A DNA stretch of 22,934 bases, taken from a virus. Below the pieces are notes generated by a model, which worked only from the letters and a program-made list of their open reading frames with translations, was not told where the DNA came from and did not search any database. The number at the start of each line of letters is the position of its first letter. The stretch's first letter is position 1. The position numbers and the translations under genes are program-made. The stretch spans positions 1-22,934 of the IMG/VR virus record IMGVR_UViG_3300025110_000140. One strand, written 5' to 3'. Below, piece by piece: positions 3,116-12,140 of the stretch.

Positions 3116-3444
3116 GTAATCAATTTGCTTTCTACTGAACCATTCACATCGTATTCCCTTCTTTCAATATAGCCTCTATCCTTTGCTTTTGTCTTTAAAT
3201 AAAATATTGTAGAGGTAGGGTTACCACCTTGTATTTGTTTAAATAATTGACTCTCTGCAAAGTCTTTTGCCACATTACTTAAATCATCTACTTGACTAGC
3301 AAACTCTTTATCTTCTTTGTAATACCTATAAAATGTAGTTCTATCTATACCTACTTGTTTACAAGCGGTAGTGACTACTCCTAAAGATTTTTCAAGTCCT
3401 TTTAGCAATGCCTTTTTAGTATGTTGTATTTTGTTGCTTTTCAT
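3085..3444 (-). CDS. terS: Terminase small subunit
   Basis: This is a 119-residue basic protein directly upstream of terL. Residues about 10-45 form a homeodomain-like helix-turn-helix (GVVTTACKQVGIDRTTFYRYYKED), as in many phage small terminases that recognise the packaging site. A helical segment follows (AKDFAESQLFKQIQ) and then the typical GNPTSTIFYLKTKAKDRGY, seen in many terS proteins just after the oligomerisation core. Its ATG overlaps the stop of the methyltransferase gene by 4 nt (ATGA) and its end overlaps terL by 31 nt, so it is translationally coupled on both sides. Confidence 0.88.
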   Translation of the reverse strand: MKSNKIQHTKKALLKGLEKSLGVVTTACKQVGIDRTTFYRYYKEDKEFASQVDDLSNVAKDFAESQLFKQIQGGNPTSTIFYLKTKAKDRGYIERREYDVNGSVESKLITWKPAGKKKQ

Positions 3445-4604
3445 TTTACAAAAGTATTATATTTTTTACCATTTATTTTAACTACTAAGTTTGAATCAAG
3501 TTTTATCATTCTATCTATTATAACTTGACAGTATTTTGGGTCAAGTTCCATTCCATAACATTTACGATAAAGTTGATGTGCTGCAACCATAGTAGAACCA
3601 CTGCCTAAATATAAGTCAATAATTATATTATCTTTTTTTGAATAATCTTTTATAAAAGGTGTTAAAACTTGCAAAGGTTTCTGTGTTGGGTGTATTCTTT
3701 TTTTTACATCTTGTTTACTCAATCCAAAATATCTAAACCAATTAAAGTGTATTACCTGTCTTTTATGTTTTTGTTTTGTCCATAATAATTCAAATTCAGA
3801 ATTACTATCTGCATCACCATTACTGTCAAGAGTTTTATCCCAAACTATATAATGTCCATTGTCAAAGTTTTCAATATACTTATAGTAATAGTCAGCACCC
3901 CATAAAAAAAACTCTTTGCAATAATTAAAGTTTTTAAATAAAGTAGTAATTAATTCAGGTTTAAAATCTTCATTATCTCCTATAACTTTTTCATATTTTT
4001 TTCCCTTTCTGTCTCCCCAATTTAAACCACTATAATCAGTATCTAAATTCATTCCATAAGGAGGGTCAGTAAACACCATATCTGCTTTTTCTCCGTTCAT
4101 TAATTTTGCTACTTGGTCTGCATCCGTACTATCACCACATAACAATCTATGTTCTCCTATTTCAATTAAATCACCTAAAACAACATCAACTTTTAAATCA
4201 TCAGGTTCATTGTAATCATCTTCTTCTGCTTCAGGTTCAATCTTAAAATCAAAATCTAAACCCCATTCATTTAGTTTTTCAGTATCCCATTCGTTTGCAA
4301 GAATATCAAAATCCCATTCACCAAATCCTACATTGTCTTTTATTATAAATTCTTTCTTTTGTTCATCTGTCCAACCTTCTGCAATATCAATTGGTATTTC
4401 TTTTATACCTGCTTTTTGTAGTGCTTTAAGCCTCATGTTGCCACCGAGTACAATCATATCTTCATCTACTACTAATGGTCTTTTATCAAGCATCTCAGGA
4501 AAATCTTTTATTGATTGCACTAATTTATCAAACTTTTTATCTGATATGTATCTAGGGTTTTCATTATTAGGAATAATCTCTTTTATGTTTACTTTTTTTC
4601 TCAT
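3441..4604 (-). CDS. ParB-like N-terminal domain fused to DNA N6-adenine/N4-cytosine methyltransferase
   Basis: I chose the ATG at 4604, just after the upstream stop, over a TTG at 4622 that would overlap that gene by 17 nt; the product is then 387 residues. Residues about 1-85 are a ParB/Sulfiredoxin-like domain (LGGNMRLKALQKAGI near 53-67). A short acidic linker leads into a methyltransferase with TDPPYGMN (motif IV, near 179-186), HPTQKP (near 305-310) and LYLGSGST (the SAM-binding motif, near 332-338). DPPY before the glycine-rich motif is the beta-class arrangement, usually N6-adenine or N4-cytosine. Such ParB-MTase fusions are common in phages beside the terminase genes and may protect phage DNA from host restriction or mark it. 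No cognate restriction nuclease is seen. The target sequence cannot be predicted here. Confidence 0.9.
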   Translation of the reverse strand: MRKKVNIKEIIPNNENPRYISDKKFDKLVQSIKDFPEMLDKRPLVVDEDMIVLGGNMRLKALQKAGIKEIPIDIAEGWTDEQKKEFIIKDNVGFGEWDFDILANEWDTEKLNEWGLDFDFKIEPEAEEDDYNEPDDLKVDVVLGDLIEIGEHRLLCGDSTDADQVAKLMNGEKADMVFTDPPYGMNLDTDYSGLNWGDRKGKKYEKVIGDNEDFKPELITTLFKNFNYCKEFFLWGADYYYKYIENFDNGHYIVWDKTLDSNGDADSNSEFELLWTKQKHKRQVIHFNWFRYFGLSKQDVKKRIHPTQKPLQVLTPFIKDYSKKDNIIIDLYLGSGSTMVAAHQLYRKCYGMELDPKYCQVIIDRMIKLDSNLVVKINGKKYNTFVK

Positions 4605-4605
4605 C

Positions 4606-4887
4606 TTAACAATATTTAGCAACTATGTTTGAATATTTTACCTTATTACCTTCAATACTTTCTTTAAAAAAAAAATATAAATACCATAAATCTTTAAAAA
4701 ACAATTCTACTTGTGGCTCATTTCTATAATATTTATCATCTACTGGAAAAAGTTCTGCTAATGCATAAATCATTTTATATGTTTCTATGTCATCATCATA
4801 ATTAAATAATCCCAACTTTGCTTTTTTTTTATTGTGTTCTATATATAATTTAAATATCTGAAATATCTTTTTTTTATTTTTCCTCAC
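4606..4887 (-). CDS. Hypothetical protein (93 aa)
   Basis: I do not recognise this family. The product is Lys-, Tyr- and Phe-rich with a basic N-terminus (MRKNKKK) and aromatic segments such as ELFFKDLWYLYFFFKES near residues 61-77. That segment is amphipathic rather than a clear membrane helix. It lies in the minus-strand operon, overlaps its upstream neighbour by 14 nt, and stops 1 nt before the ATG of the methyltransferase. Its operonic position suggests a role in replication or packaging, but nothing more can be said. Confidence 0.6.
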   Translation of the reverse strand: MRKNKKKIFQIFKLYIEHNKKKAKLGLFNYDDDIETYKMIYALAELFPVDDKYYRNEPQVELFFKDLWYLYFFFKESIEGNKVKYSNIVAKYC

Positions 4888-6662: not shown

Positions 6663-6725
6663 AAGTAATTAACTAATTATAAAAATAAATTTAAAAAAAA
6701 ATTATAATAATTAAAAATAATTTTA

Positions 6726-6733
6726 TAAATTTG
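6726..6733 (+). promoter_or_regulatory. Putative -7 element for rightward early operon; near-leaderless start
   Basis: TAAATTTG matches the Bacteroidota -7 consensus TAnnTTTG. It ends only 4 nt before the ATG at 6738, so the transcript would begin at or within a few nt of the start codon. No good -33 TTTG is seen about 19 bp upstream. Confidence 0.4.
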
Positions 6734-6737
6734 TTTT

Positions 6738-6929
6738 ATGTTAACTAAAGAAATATTAGAAGGTCGTCTCAAGGAGATGAAACTAGATAAACAAAAATTA
6801 GCTAACAAGGTTGATGTAACATTGATGACAATGTATAACAAATTTAATAACCCTGATAGCTTTAAAATATCGGAATTAAAGAAACTTGCTAAGGTAGGAT
6901 TTATAACACATTTAAGAATTGATTTATGA
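6738..6929 (+). CDS. Cro-like small HTH (XRE-type) DNA-binding protein
   Basis: A 63-residue basic protein that is essentially one helix-turn-helix domain. LKEMKLDKQKLANKVDVTLMTMYNKFNNPD (about 11-40) matches the XRE/Cro pattern of a KLA helix, a turn, and a TMYNKF recognition helix. There is no dimerisation or protease-like domain as in CI repressors. It is the first gene of the rightward operon and sits beside three TTAC-N3-GTAA dyads that are candidate operators. Its stop overlaps the next gene by 4 nt (ATGA). The likely role is control of the divergent promoters, by analogy with Cro; the regulated promoter and the sign of the effect are inferred. Confidence 0.7.
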   Translation: MLTKEILEGRLKEMKLDKQKLANKVDVTLMTMYNKFNNPDSFKISELKKLAKVGFITHLRIDL

Positions 6930-7120
6930 TGGAAGATGTACAAAAAAGTATAATTAGACAGAGTTCAATCAAGGCTTCTATTGATTTTTTTAAAATCAAA
7001 TCAGAGCAAGGTAGTAATGAGGTTACCGTTGATGACGTAATAGATGTAGCAAGTGAGATTGCTTACTATTGTGCAACTGGTAAGAAGTATAATAATAATA
7101 ATAATAAACTTTTAAAATAA
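6926..7120 (+). CDS. Hypothetical protein (64 aa)
   Basis: A small unrecognised protein with a predicted helical core (SIKASIDFFKIKSEQGSN, then VDDVIDVASEIAYYC) and a low-complexity C-terminus of five Asn. These Asn come from a run of AAT repeats near 7090-7105. The helical DVI/ASEIA pattern is seen in small phage proteins next to SSB-like genes, but no function is known to me. It is coupled to both neighbours: a 4-nt ATGA overlap upstream and a 1-nt overlap (TAATG) downstream. Confidence 0.6.
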   Translation: MMEDVQKSIIRQSSIKASIDFFKIKSEQGSNEVTVDDVIDVASEIAYYCATGKKYNNNNNKLLK

Positions 7121-7383
7121 TGAAAAACAACAAATTGTATTTAGGTAGTGGATGGACAAGGACTGGAAAATATGGAGATTTTTATAATCTACAAATTGAT
7201 TTAAATTTACTTGCAGAGAATCCAAATTGTATTCAGAAAGTAGGTGATAAAAAATTTTTAAATCTTACTATGGGTAAACTTCAAGAGCCTTTAAGTGCAG
7301 GACAAGATTTATATGTAAGATGGAATGATTTTACTCCTGCCAAAACGGTAGAAGAAAAACAAGGCAACGATATGCCTTTCTAA
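7120..7383 (+). CDS. Small protein with SSB-like acidic DMPF tail (possible ssDNA-binding protein)
   Basis: This is an 87-residue protein with a beta-rich N-terminal part (LYLGSGWTRTGKYGDFYNLQIDL) and a disordered-looking end that finishes in GNDMPF. Bacterial and phage SSBs end in an acidic tip with Pro-Phe (DDDIPF type) that recruits partner proteins, and the length and alternating pattern are compatible with a minimal OB fold. It precedes recombination and replication-type genes, which fits an SSB. Against this, the protein is shorter than most SSBs, the tip has only one acidic residue next to MPF, and I do not recognise the core. The assignment is tentative. Confidence 0.5.
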   Translation: MKNNKLYLGSGWTRTGKYGDFYNLQIDLNLLAENPNCIQKVGDKKFLNLTMGKLQEPLSAGQDLYVRWNDFTPAKTVEEKQGNDMPF

Positions 7384-7414
7384 TTAATTATCGTATTTTT
7401 TTATAGTTTGGAAT

Positions 7415-7463
7415 AGTGCCTGATAAATATTTTTAAGTGGAATATTTTGATGGCACTTTTTTT
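7415..7463 (+). terminator. Possible intrinsic terminator after the SSB-like gene
   Basis: AGTGCC (7415-7420) pairs with GGCACT (7452-7457), and an inner arm AAATATT pairs with AATATTT across a symmetric internal loop. A run of seven T follows (7457-7463). It may attenuate transcription of the early operon between the regulatory genes and the nuclease/modification genes. Confidence 0.55.
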
Positions 7464-7474
7464 ATATTAGTAAT

Positions 7475-7624
7475 ATGATTGAATTAATAAAACATTTCTT
7501 AGGTTTCTGTGGAGAACATTGGCATCCTAATTTATGGACAATATTATACACCTCTCCTTTAATTATTTATAGTATATACTATCTCAGATATACTTTTAAA
7601 AGGTATTTAAAAAAAATTATATAA
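7475..7624 (+). CDS. Small predicted membrane protein (49 aa)
   Basis: ATG at 7475 to TAA at 7622-7624. The product begins MIELIKHFLGFCGEHWHP, then has a hydrophobic aromatic stretch (NLWTILYTSPLIIYSIYYL) that could span a membrane, and a basic C-terminus (KRYLKK). The order CGEHWHP, hydrophobic helix, basic end is like small phage proteins I recall from other genomes with no known function. It fills the otherwise empty gap after the terminator-like hairpin. The shortness limits certainty, but the composition is coding-like. Confidence 0.5.
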   Translation: MIELIKHFLGFCGEHWHPNLWTILYTSPLIIYSIYYLRYTFKRYLKKII

Positions 7625-7673
7625 AATATTTTTTCATATCAGATTAAAGTATTAAATTTATTTTTAATTTAAA

Positions 7674-8429
7674 ATGAAAAAAATAAAAGACAGCAACGAA
7701 GAATATCATTCACATAATAGTATTTCTGCTAGTGGATTAAAAACGATATATAAGAAGTCTATAAATCATTATTTCAATAGTGCATTTAAAATGACAGATG
7801 CAATGAACTTTGGTAGTGCAGTTCATTCTGCAATTCTTGAGGGTGGTCATGACCTTGCCGTCTTGCCTGAACTTAATCTCAGAACTAAAGAAGGTAAAAA
7901 GATAAAGCAAGATTTCATTAATGACAACAAAGGAAAAATTGTTATTAAACAAGAGGAAGAGGAAGCTATAAATAAAATAAAAAGAAATTTCAATAATCAT
8001 AGTTTGGCTAAGAAGTTGGTTCAACGATTGACTGAAACAGAAGTTTCATACTATGGTAATATAGATAATGTAGATGTAAGAGTAAGACCTGATGGCATTA
8101 AAGAAAACGATTATATTATAGATATAAAAACCTCTATGGATGCTAGTCCTAGATTTTTTAAAAGTTCTATATATAACTTTGCATATCATCTTCAAGCGTG
8201 CTTCTATAGTGAAGCACTTGGATATGACCCTGCTAAATTTAGATTTATAACTATTGAAAACAAATATCCTTATACCGTAGAAGTATTTTCTATGAGTGAA
8301 GACATGATTGAGTATGGTAGAAATGCTTGGAGAATAGCATTTGATGTATGGAAAGAATATTTAGAGACCGATAATATGAGAGGTTTCTACTGGGAACAAT
8401 TTAATAAAGACGGAAGTTTAATACTATGA
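7674..8429 (+). CDS. PD-(D/E)XK exonuclease, RecE-like
   Basis: 251 residues. The N-terminal SISASGLKTIYKKS is followed by NFGSAVHSAILEG (45-57, H51). The catalytic segment is VRVRPDGIKENDYIIDIKTS (135-154), giving D140, then D150 and K152. A conserved YHLQACFYSEAL (171-182) follows, with Q174. This H...RPD...DIKT...YhxQaxxY order is that of the RecE C-terminal/PDDEXK exonuclease group, which degrades the 5' strand of duplex DNA for single-strand annealing recombination. A RecT/Bet/Erf-type annealing partner is not visible in the window. The stop overlaps the next gene by 4 nt (ATGA). The 50 nt upstream hold no recognisable TAnnTTTG promoter. Confidence 0.85.
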   Translation: MKKIKDSNEEYHSHNSISASGLKTIYKKSINHYFNSAFKMTDAMNFGSAVHSAILEGGHDLAVLPELNLRTKEGKKIKQDFINDNKGKIVIKQEEEEAINKIKRNFNNHSLAKKLVQRLTETEVSYYGNIDNVDVRVRPDGIKENDYIIDIKTSMDASPRFFKSSIYNFAYHLQACFYSEALGYDPAKFRFITIENKYPYTVEVFSMSEDMIEYGRNAWRIAFDVWKEYLETDNMRGFYWEQFNKDGSLIL

Positions 8430-8671
8430 CAATATCAGATGATTTAAGCCAACACGAAAAACGTGAACTGTATGGTACATATCAAACCAATAAAATGACA
8501 CGAGCAAAGATAGACGCTCTTATGGAAGCTATGGCTCAAGCCGAATGTACATTAGGGATTGATAGTACAGATAAAGAAATAGAAAAAGTGAAGCAAGAAC
8601 AATTAATTTATTTATCTAAGATAAAAGATTTAGACCCTATTAAATATGACATACTAAAAAAAGTTTTGTGA
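8426..8671 (+). CDS. Hypothetical protein (81 aa)
   Basis: An unrecognised, probably all-helical, charged protein (MTISDDLSQHEKRELYGTYQ; KIDALMEAMAQAECTLGI; KVKQEQLIYLSKIKDL). It is locked between the RecE-like nuclease and the Mom-like gene by 4-nt overlaps on both sides (ATGA and GTGA), so the three are very likely cotranslated. This position would suit an accessory to the nuclease, but no annealing-protein motif is seen. Confidence 0.6.
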   Translation: MTISDDLSQHEKRELYGTYQTNKMTRAKIDALMEAMAQAECTLGIDSTDKEIEKVKQEQLIYLSKIKDLDPIKYDILKKVL

Positions 8672-9321
8672 TAAAAGATGAATATAATGTAATGTCAATA
8701 AAAAAAGAACTTTGTAAAGAATGGTTGTTACATAAACATTATGCAAAAAGAGTTCCTTCAATATCATATGCTTTTGGATTATTTGATTCTAAAATAATGC
8801 AGGGTATCTTAACAGTAGGCAAGCCTGCAAGTAATGCTTTATGTGTAGGAGTATGTGGCAAACATAATTCTAAATATGTTTATGAGTTAAACAGGCTTTG
8901 TGTAAACGATGGATTAAAAAAAAATGTATTAAGTTATTTTGTGTCTCAATCTCTTAAAATGCTTGAAAATATAATTTTAGTTAGTTATGCAGATACATCA
9001 CAAAATCACAATGGTTACATTTATCAAGCTACTAATTGGATATATACAGGATTATCTGCTAAAAGAACTGAAAGATATGACGTAAATAATCCAAATAGAC
9101 ACAGCAAATCTGTTACAGAAAATAAAAATCTAAAGTATCAAGAGTTAGCTATAAGAGAACGACCACAAAAACATAGATATATTTTTTTTATTTGTAATAA
9201 AAATCAAAAAAAACAATGGCTTAAAGATTTAAACTATAAAACAGATAAATACCCAAAAGGTAAAAATATAAATTATGATGCAAGTTATAAAACAACAACA
9301 CAAACAGAATTATTTAAATAA
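8668..9321 (+). CDS. Mom-like DNA adenine modification protein (GNAT-related)
   Basis: 217 residues from a GTG that overlaps the previous stop (GTGA); an internal ATG at 8692 is the alternative. Visible family features are HYAKRVPSISYAFGLFD (24-40), GILTVGKPASNA (46-57), YELNRLCVND (72-81), SYADTSQNHNGYIYQATNW (106-124) followed by IYTG, and KHRYIFF (168-174). This order matches the Mu Mom family as I know it, which modifies adenine at N6 (carbamoylmethyl-adenine in Mu) and protects phage DNA from many restriction enzymes. Mu needs a host-methylation-controlled promoter and the Com translation activator; I see neither here. It sits in an early-type operon directly before a possible nucleotide-modification-associated gene. 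Family membership is by motif recall, and the actual modification is inferred. Confidence 0.72.
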   Translation: MIKDEYNVMSIKKELCKEWLLHKHYAKRVPSISYAFGLFDSKIMQGILTVGKPASNALCVGVCGKHNSKYVYELNRLCVNDGLKKNVLSYFVSQSLKMLENIILVSYADTSQNHNGYIYQATNWIYTGLSAKRTERYDVNNPNRHSKSVTENKNLKYQELAIRERPQKHRYIFFICNKNQKKQWLKDLNYKTDKYPKGKNINYDASYKTTTQTELFK

Positions 9322-9326
9322 AAATT

Positions 9327-9653
9327 ATGACACAAAAAGAATTTGACAAATTAGTAAAACAATTAAATGATTATTCACTAGATATAATGGCAAATAAAAG
9401 ACCTGAATATACTAACGAAAATGAAGACGTATTAAATAATTTTAAGACTACCGCAGAAAGACTTGAAACTTCTGAACTAAAAGTGTGGGGTACATTTTTT
9501 GAAAAACAGATACAAAGCATTTTTGCACATTTAAAAAATGCTAATTTAAAAAAGAGTGAACCAATACATAGTAGATTTTCAGACATAATAAATTACTGTT
9601 ATCTAGGTTATGCGTTATTTACAGAAAGAGATGATAAAAAAAAGAATAATTAA
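9327..9653 (+). CDS. Possible Nmad1/DUF1599-like protein next to Mom-like gene
   Basis: 108 residues, helical. The pattern RPEYTNENEDVLNNFKTTAE (25-44), a FFEKQIQSIFAHL helix (57-69) and SRFSDIINYCYLGYALF (82-98) resembles small phage proteins with a KxxEY...NF...K(H)xxSI...D.INY layout. These are related to the nucleotide-modification-associated family (DUF1599, Nmad1), which was predicted from gene neighbourhoods to act with DNA base-modifying enzymes. Here the usual KH is KQ. Position 6 nt after the Mom-like gene is consistent with such a role. The similarity is from memory and moderate; a plain hypothetical protein is the alternative. Confidence 0.5.
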   Translation: MTQKEFDKLVKQLNDYSLDIMANKRPEYTNENEDVLNNFKTTAERLETSELKVWGTFFEKQIQSIFAHLKNANLKKSEPIHSRFSDIINYCYLGYALFTERDDKKKNN

Positions 9654-9759
9654 AATTGTTGCAATTATCCTAATCGGAGTGTTATCTTTATTCTATGTCA
9701 GGAATGAAATCACGAAGAAAGGGTCACGATTACGAAAGAGCGATACGGAAAGAGTTTAG
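9631..9759 (+). CDS. Possible small single-span membrane protein (42 aa)
   Basis: ATG at 9631 to TAG at 9757-9759. The product is MIKKRIIKIVAIILIGVLSLFYV followed by a basic tail: a positively charged start, one hydrophobic helix and a charged end. It bridges the 41-nt gap between its neighbours, but overlaps the upstream gene by 23 nt and the resolvase-like gene by 65 nt in a different frame. It may be a real small membrane peptide or a chance frame. Confidence 0.35.
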   Translation: MIKKRIIKIVAIILIGVLSLFYVRNEITKKGSRLRKSDTERV

Positions 9760-10045
9760 GAATTTAGGTTGGAAGTATTGTGAAACCTCTCGTTATGCTA
9801 GCAAAGCAATAGATGATGCTAAAATTGATTTAGTGGGTACAGACCCATTTGCAATACAATGCAAGGCTACTATTAACAATCCTAGTTATCATAAGATTCT
9901 TGACCAAATGAGACCCAACAAACCATTATATAAATTAATATACCACAAACGTCAAGGTGGTAGAGAGTACGTTATCATGGAAAAAAACGACTGGCTTGAG
10001 ATTCTAGAGATGCTAGTTGAAAATAATATATTAAAAAATTATTAA
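9695..10045 (+). CDS. Holliday-junction-resolvase-like PD-(D/E)XK nuclease
   Basis: 116 residues. KGHDYERAIRKEFRNLGW (9-26) supplies an N-terminal helix with E14. AIDDAKIDLVGTDPFAIQCKA (38-58) supplies the core D-(X)n-QxK motif (D45, Q54, K56). This is the arrangement of archaeal Hjc-like and phage resolvase-like nucleases that cut branched DNA during recombination or before packaging. The C-terminal GGREYVIMEKNDWLEIL is typical of the closing strand and helix. The start (ATG 9695, or M4 at 9704) is constrained by the conserved helix. An intergenic region with its own promoter-like element follows, so this may be the last gene of its transcription unit. Confidence 0.75.
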   Translation: MSGMKSRRKGHDYERAIRKEFRNLGWKYCETSRYASKAIDDAKIDLVGTDPFAIQCKATINNPSYHKILDQMRPNKPLYKLIYHKRQGGREYVIMEKNDWLEILEMLVENNILKNY

Positions 10046-10063
10046 AAATAATTTTAATTATCC

Positions 10064-10094
10064 TTTGTATTTATTAAAAAATTTTTTAAATTTG
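10064..10094 (+). promoter_or_regulatory. Bacteroidota-type promoter (TTTG-N19-TAAATTTG)
   Basis: TTTG at 10064-10067 and TAAATTTG at 10087-10094 are separated by 19 bp, matching the -33 TTTG / -7 TAnnTTTG consensus of Bacteroidota. The ATG at 10121 lies 26 nt after the -7 element, giving a short AT-rich leader. It probably drives the second half of the rightward gene block. Confidence 0.6.
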
Positions 10095-10120
10095 ATTATT
10101 GTTAAATTAAATAATTAAAA

Positions 10121-11584: not shown

Positions 11585-11773
11585 ATGGAAATCTCTGAAT
11601 ATATAAAGAAACATTTTTTAGATAGTTGTTCAGATAATATGCACGATTTAAAACATCGTAGACAAATAATAGAATTATATAAAGAACAATTAAAAACTCT
11701 TGAGGAGTTTATTAATATTGAAGATGAAAGTTTAAAAAAATTAGAAGATGGGATTAATAAAACATCCGAATAG
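11585..11773 (+). CDS. Small hypothetical coiled-coil-like protein (62 aa)
   Basis: A highly charged, probably helical protein (MEISEYIKKHFLDSCSDNMH; RRQIIELYKEQLKTLEEFIN; DESLKKLEDGINK). Heptad-like Ile/Leu spacing from about residue 26 suggests a coiled coil. It overlaps the downstream nuclease-like gene by 26 nt. Confidence 0.55.
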   Translation: MEISEYIKKHFLDSCSDNMHDLKHRRQIIELYKEQLKTLEEFINIEDESLKKLEDGINKTSE

Positions 11774-12140
11774 AGCAAAACAATTAATTGATTTTACAGG
11801 TGTACAAAGCGGTAACATATACCCTTCAGATATTGATGCGGTACTAGAATTTGATTCTAAATATTTGTTATTATTTGAATTAAAAAAAGTAGGAGTTCAA
11901 GTCCCATTAGGTCAAAGAATGATGCTTGAAAGAATTATTGATGCGTGGGAAGATAGTGGTAAGATTGGTAGTGTCGTTTATTGTGAACACGACACACGGT
12001 CTCATGAGACAATATACTTAAAAGATTGTGCGGTAGTTGGTTTATATAACAAAGGTGAATCTAAAGCGTTTAGAAAAGACCTTAGAGAGTTTCTATTCAG
12101 TTATGGGGAAAAGTATAATATTAAAAAGATAATCGCTTAA
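11748..12140 (+). CDS. PD-(D/E)XK nuclease-like protein (130 aa)
   Basis: The N-terminal IYPSDIDAVLEFDSKYLLLFELKK (24-47) has the D-x(n)-ExK signature: D28 or D30, then E44 and K46 in the strand LLFELKK. It is followed by GQRMMLERIIDAW (55-67), which resembles the helix that often follows the active site, and a strand VVYCEH. This fits a minimal PD-(D/E)XK endonuclease-like fold, as found in VRR-NUC or resolvase-like phage proteins. It is the last gene of the rightward block and lies just before the strong terminator. The catalytic assignment is inferred from the motif only. Confidence 0.55.
   Translation: MGLIKHPNRAKQLIDFTGVQSGNIYPSDIDAVLEFDSKYLLLFELKKVGVQVPLGQRMMLERIIDAWEDSGKIGSVVYCEHDTRSHETIYLKDCAVVGLYNKGESKAFRKDLREFLFSYGEKYNIKKIIA

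Follow-up and report, generated by a model that had tools for sequence, protein, structure and literature searches.

A gene pair in an IMG/VR virus record (22,934 bases, linear and probably a fragment, from a marine phage; hereafter the window) raises the question of whether a Mom-type DNA modification protein and the small gene directly downstream of it form a dedicated two-gene cassette, as had been proposed in the preliminary description of this DNA, or whether each of them has its own reason to be there. Both genes are encoded on the plus strand, the first at 8668..9321 (217 aa, GTG start) and the second at 9327..9653 (108 aa, ATG start), with a spacing of 5 nt (9322-9326) between them. 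They are preceded by an exonuclease VIII-like recombination gene at 7674..8429 (plus strand; phrog_412, 2e-59; PF12684, 2e-21), which forms the conserved left flank, and by a conserved 81-aa gene at 8426..8671 (plus strand) for which no family match was found in Pfam or PHROGs. On the right, a plus-strand gene at 9695..10045 encodes a RusA-like/PDDEXK protein of 116 aa (phrog_244, RusA-like, 2.5e-14; PF24608 at 0.0013, under the cut-off of the Pfam profile search), and its position in the gene order is kept among the relatives. A second DNA modification gene, located on the minus strand at 3441..4622, encodes a ParB-like domain together with an N6/N4 DNA methylase (PF01555, 1.3e-22; phrog_498, 5e-80). 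Besides the exonuclease VIII-like and RusA-like genes, the window contains terminase, primase/helicase-like and tail genes. The nearest terminases belong to Bacteroides and Phocaeicola phages (34% identity), and another window gene has its closest isolate homologue in a Tenacibaculum phage. The earlier designation as a Bacteroidota phage is thus plausible rather than established.

The Mom protein and its control

The 217-aa protein was found to match PF25680 from position 2 to 202 of the 202-position profile (3.8e-36; 125 bits, with the cut-off at 27.1) in the Pfam search, and phrog_1384, annotated as 'Mom-like DNA modification protein', in PHROGs (1e-60). The blocks on which the Mom assignment had originally been based (HYAKRVP, ELNRL, SYADTSQNHNGYIYQATNW and KHRYIFF) are all found in the translation. 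In an alignment of 21 sequences, comprising the window protein, Mu Mom, the Listeria A511 Mom and environmental homologues (18 in the set), the residues H24, Y25, E73, R76, N86, S89, D109, Y119, Q120, N123, R170, Y171, P196 and K197 are identical throughout, including Mu, where they correspond to H58, Y59, E108, R111, N121, S124, D149, Y159, Q160, N163, R216, Y217, P240 and K241 (241-residue numbering). S89 and about 20 more invariant positions are common to the window protein and the active-site region of Mu Mom, and S89 aligns with S124, the residue named in the title of PDB entry 8bv8 ('phage Mu protein Mom inactive mutant S124A'). The structure model of the window protein (pLDDT 81.6) has this same entry as its best match (Foldseek 2.6e-11; Z 18.3, rmsd 2.8 Å, 174 residues aligned), with the next-best GNAT at Z 12.1. 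Profile match, invariant residues and fold, all computed directly, agree with each other, so that the predicted membership of the Mom family is firm and an assignment to another GNAT group was rejected.

The overall identity to Mu Mom is only 25%, which could be read as a sign that the homologue is degenerate or performs a different GNAT reaction. We regard this as very improbable, since the invariant residues and the fold are retained and the dN/dS of 0.07-0.22 against relatives indicates purifying selection. Mu Mom transfers a carbamoylmethyl group onto N6 of adenine, by which many restriction enzymes are blocked. By analogy, the window Mom most likely adds a carbamoylmethyl (methylcarbamoyl) group to N6 of adenines in the phage DNA after its synthesis, and this modification would block many host restriction enzymes; activity, adduct and restriction protection are all predicted from the Mu enzyme. 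We found nothing that favours the different adduct or dedicated precursor suggested earlier: the window protein retains the residues it has in common with Mu, and Mom is not accompanied by any conserved precursor gene.

Mom homologues are common in phages, occurring in 285 isolate phage records, many of them annotated as Mom, and in at least 595 confirmed IMG/VR matches; the window Mom is therefore a new member of a known family. Bacteria rarely carry them: 37 loci were found in the GTDB set, and among 395 Bacteroidota genomes 4 have one. The Mom-like proteins of the Listeria phages A511, LP-026 and LP-114, the Bacillus phage Riggi and Staphylococcus phages are 43-50% identical to the window protein over nearly their full length, but the neighbours of their genes differ from those in the window, and A511 Mom has no adjoining Nmad1-like gene. 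With the Mu methylcarbamoylase (8bv8, PF25680) the window protein shares the family profile, the fold and the catalytic residue pattern including Ser124/S89, whereas its C-terminal tail runs beyond the end of the Mu protein and its gene is set among recombination genes of a non-Mu phage.

The control elements of Mu were also found to be absent, as the preliminary description had stated. The Com zinc-ribbon protein (PF10122) has no match in the record, which is possibly a fragment, and no GATC (Dam) site occurs upstream of Mom or anywhere else in the window, so that a switch of the Mu Dam/OxyR type cannot work here. The missing Com is nothing special, since most Moms of non-Mu phages are also without it; no Com partner is reported to adjoin A511 Mom, for example. 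Mom and the 81-aa gene preceding it share 4 nt (GTGA at 8668-8671), which suggests that Mom is translationally coupled to this gene, and its expression may proceed through this coupling without the Com, C and Dam controls of Mu.

The Nmad1-like neighbour

The 108-aa protein (phrog_6802, 5e-15) had been likened to the DUF1599/Nmad1 group (PF07659), which carries the Pfam name 'Nucleotide modification associated domain 1'. Against this profile it scores 14.1 bits, below the gathering cut-off of 25, and seven of its 15 relatives match weakly, the best with an E of 0.0032. A profile built from the 15 relatives, on the other hand, was aligned by hhalign to bona fide Bacteroidota DUF1599 domains with a probability of 94% (E 1.5e-7) over 69 columns, with K-x-x-x-Y and E-x-I...D-x-INY features in common, as against 0.03% in a control with MazG, whose kinship is thereby negative at the profile level. 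The resemblance thus holds as remote kinship and fails as formal membership, and we call the protein Nmad1-like because it appears to be a distant DUF1599 relative. Its Bacteroidota relatives in DUF1599 consist of two copies in about 180 aa, whereas the window protein is single-domain. The structure model is all-helical with four helices (pLDDT 79.6), and no significant structural neighbour was found with Foldseek or VIA-align; MazG-like folds (Z 5.3 or less), dCTPase-like folds and unrelated helical bundles are mixed in the list at low Z. The gene is under purifying selection (dN/dS 0-0.15).

Whether this gene is a dedicated partner that supplies or polices a precursor, leading to a new adenine adduct, can be judged from how often it accompanies Mom. 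It adjoins Mom directly in the window and also in the loci L003, L033 and L250, and whenever it is near Mom it is the immediate next gene (4/4), as a functional link would predict; its distant kinship to a domain associated with nucleotide modification points the same way. However, these are only four of the 158 non-redundant Mom loci, and Mom adjoins none of the close relatives of the Nmad1-like gene in 54 loci. The two genes also diverge discordantly, for between the window and L003 the Mom proteins are 79% identical and the Nmad1-like proteins 44%, from which we conclude that Mom moves independently and that the two do not co-evolve. C5 methylases located at the same position behave likewise (65-68% identity, compared with 45-49% for the Nmad1-like proteins). 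Moreover, the catalytic residues of the window Mom are Mu-like, and Mu Mom is not known to require such a partner. A dedicated cassette is therefore improbable to a high degree, and the proposal is not borne out: the neighbour occurs mostly without Mom, and close relatives have methylases or nothing at the Mom position. Within these phages the Nmad1-like gene belongs to the core set and is probably not dedicated to Mom.

An exchangeable slot beside the Nmad1-like gene

In the phage group of the window the gene order is constant, namely exonuclease, 81-aa gene, a variable slot, Nmad1-like gene and RusA-like gene. The slot (8672..9326 in the window), which has the 81-aa gene at its left edge and the RusA-like gene at the right edge of the region, contains Mom in the window and DNA methylases or nothing in the relatives. 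N6/N4 methylases of 302 aa (L074), 209-215 aa (L076, L077 and L097) and 247 aa (L098) were observed, as well as, in more distant relatives, C5 methylases (L078, L088, L090 and L091). Where the slot is empty (e.g., L075, L079 and L094), the stop of the 81-aa gene overlaps the start of the Nmad1-like gene by 4 nt. The exchange is seen in close relatives: L075 has no Mom and its DNA is 97-98% identical to the window on the flanks 7663-8429 and 9326-10119, and L074, with flanks 92-94% identical to the window DNA, has an N6/N4 methylase at the Mom position. In two further loci (L096 and L101) a C5 methylase is found on the opposite side of the Nmad1-like gene.

A second backbone shows the order 559-aa primase/helicase gene, slot and Nmad1-like gene, and its occupants comprise Mom (L003 and L250), C5 methylases (L118, L127 and L155) and an N6/N4 methylase (L120), with the slot being empty in L121, L124 and L125. 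Of the 145 positions adjoining the Nmad1-like gene in 75 non-redundant loci, 19 hold modification enzymes, compared with 30 of 1306 elsewhere (OR 6.4, p 4e-8); the enrichment persists in a within-locus permutation test (p 2e-4) and when the loci found through Mom are removed (16/139 versus 27/1225, p 1.4e-6). Since the loci are metagenomic fragments that are mutually related, these p-values are optimistic and overstate the independence of the sample. The occupants and the enrichment were computed directly, and the finding of a swap slot is new and useful for understanding the setting of Mom.

We therefore consider it probable, and hold with good confidence, that Mom is a functional enzyme and an interchangeable occupant of this slot, which would serve the defence of the phage against restriction, and that the Nmad1-like gene is a core gene rather than its partner. 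Mom would occupy an exchangeable position between the conserved 81-aa and Nmad1-like genes, inside an operon of recombination genes, and related phages would exchange it for N6/N4 or C5 DNA methylases or keep the slot empty. Points against this reading are that the slot comparison includes no Mom carrier besides the window within its exact backbone, and that the second methylase of the window (3441-4622) could provide protection alone. The slot may also be a generic insertion point for accessory genes, with modification genes only as its commonest passengers and with no functional significance in how close it lies to the Nmad1-like gene; we give this a chance only slightly short of even. Unrelated small ORFs adjoin the Nmad1-like gene in L080, L086 and L132, variation is also seen on the far side of the 81-aa gene, and modification enzymes are similarly enriched next to that gene (p 2e-4). 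Against a generic site, Mom, N6/N4 and C5 enzymes recur on the same side of the same gene in at least two backbones, and no such enrichment was found in the same loci beside the other conserved genes, namely the exonuclease, RusA-like and primase/helicase genes (EXO, RUS116 and PRIMHEL).

For the Nmad1-like gene itself, two roles carry about equal weight. It may be a general helper of modification, since it lies close to three classes of DNA-modifying enzymes, or a mere landmark at a tolerant insertion point, since it is also conserved where no modification enzyme adjoins it, for example in the 60-70 kb phages L135-L154. The role of phage genes of the Nmad1/DUF1599 type thus becomes testable. 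In addition, sister phages with Mom, an N6/N4 or C5 methylase, or no enzyme at the same junction provide a comparison of what each modification gains against restriction.

Several related arrangements were also observed. The gap between the exonuclease and the 81-aa gene (about 8429 in the window; 2350-3417 in L075, 5233-5784 in L113, and also in L076, L097 and L098) is a second variable spot, which is occupied in L075 and L101 by a 355-aa protein of zinc-ribbon/GIY-YIG appearance, in L076 and L113 by a protein of 171-183 aa whose E-x-K motif is nuclease-like, and in some relatives by other small ORFs; the window has nothing there. Close to the terminase of L102, the minus strand encodes a second, divergent Mom together with an N6/N4 methylase. 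L148, L151 and L153 show a third arrangement of such genes, in which the primase/helicase and Nmad1-like genes are followed first by a 72-aa gene, then by an N6/N4 methylase and finally by a divergent Mom-like protein that shares 35% identity with the window Mom. Finally, L100 encodes at 6710-7513, near a C5 methylase and an Nmad1-like gene, a 267-aa protein with an N-terminal ATP-pyrophosphatase motif (SGGVDSS) that is queuosine/QueC-like or asparagine-synthase-like.

GATC absence and a nuclease-like gene

The complete absence of GATC from the window, where shuffled sequences contain 53.7 +/- 7.4, turned out to be associated with a different gene, and this association is the more surprising feature of the window. 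Within the backbone of the window the loss is all-or-none, as close relatives have either exactly zero GATC or normal numbers. A link to Mom was rejected, given that the Mom-bearing L003 is normal (49 GATC, 48 expected) and that GATC-free relatives have any slot occupant or none. When the gene content of 43 contigs with this backbone was scanned, the gene best tied to GATC absence was found at 11748-12140 (plus strand), encoding a PD-(D/E)XK-like protein of 130 aa that belongs to no known family. It occurs in 12 of 18 GATC-free contigs, most of the missing cases being fragments, and in none of the 25 that contain GATC (p 1.2e-6). Among all contigs examined at that stage, 26 of 26 carriers are GATC-free and the gene is present in none of 170 GATC-containing contigs; for whole records of the two backbones, with GATC counted on the fetched stretches, it is present in 12 of the 12 GATC-free records tested and in none of 18 with GATC. 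A broader search, with identities down to 40%, identified 75 carrier stretches, of which some overlap and 70 are without GATC. Together these stretches contain 12 GATC in 795 kb where 1,700-2,370 are expected, while other palindromes are only partly reduced. The isolate Tenacibaculum phage pT24 (234,670 bases), which has a 41% identical homologue and was examined as a prediction, contains no GATC in the 182,300 bases fetched, with about 480 expected.

The pattern P-[ST]-D-I-D-A-V-L-E ... E-x-K is invariant in the family and is typical of PD-(D/E)XK nucleases. No match above noise level was obtained for the sequence of the 130-aa protein in Pfam, PHROGs, NCBIfam or PDB, and hhalign against three MutH sequences gave a probability of 0.1%, a comparison that PD-(D/E)XK families often escape. 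The gene was not found among the 395 Bacteroidota genomes, its neighbours vary, and no methylase consistently adjoins it. These observations make the protein a candidate GATC-cutting phage nuclease, with immunity through loss of the site, a proposal that we put forward tentatively and at somewhat below even chance. The wider picture of dual protection, in which an exchangeable modification slot occupied by Mom is combined with a stand-alone PD-(D/E)XK endonuclease that cuts host or rival DNA at GATC and in which immunity comes from purged sites and not from a methylase, is possible but equally tentative. The protein could then be a phage restriction enzyme to which its owner is immune for lack of sites; if this is confirmed, the virus would be carrying a sequence-specific nuclease in an unusual manner.

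The same association could arise if the gene only marks phages of certain hosts. The control phage PTm1, which infects the same host genus as pT24 and has no homologue, contains no GATC in 50 kb, where about 143 are expected, and one GATC in another 3.3 kb; a weak 15-bit match to the 130-aa protein in PTm1 was judged to be due to chance because the motif is missing. About a quarter of the non-carrier contigs are also GATC-free. Together with PTm1 they imply that there is a host-side pressure against GATC, and the gene might be a marker of phages that infect such hosts. A literature search on GATC-free Flavobacterium phages returned nothing relevant.

A combination of Mom with possible nuclease activity within one phage has a parallel in jumbo phages, where Moms are fused to REase domains (PMC7824862). 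The window Mom differs from these fusions in being single-domain, with the nuclease-like gene located separately at a distance of 2.4 kb.

GATC-free contigs of marine phages in which the 130-aa gene was not found in the available sequence include L103, L104, L108, L109 and L110, and likewise L008-L010, L016, L022, L024, L026, L067 and L068; the loss of GATC there must therefore have another cause. In the window itself, CATG was observed to be strongly reduced (17, with 65 expected), and CCGG, TCGA and GGCC each have a count of 0 where 8-11 are expected of each.
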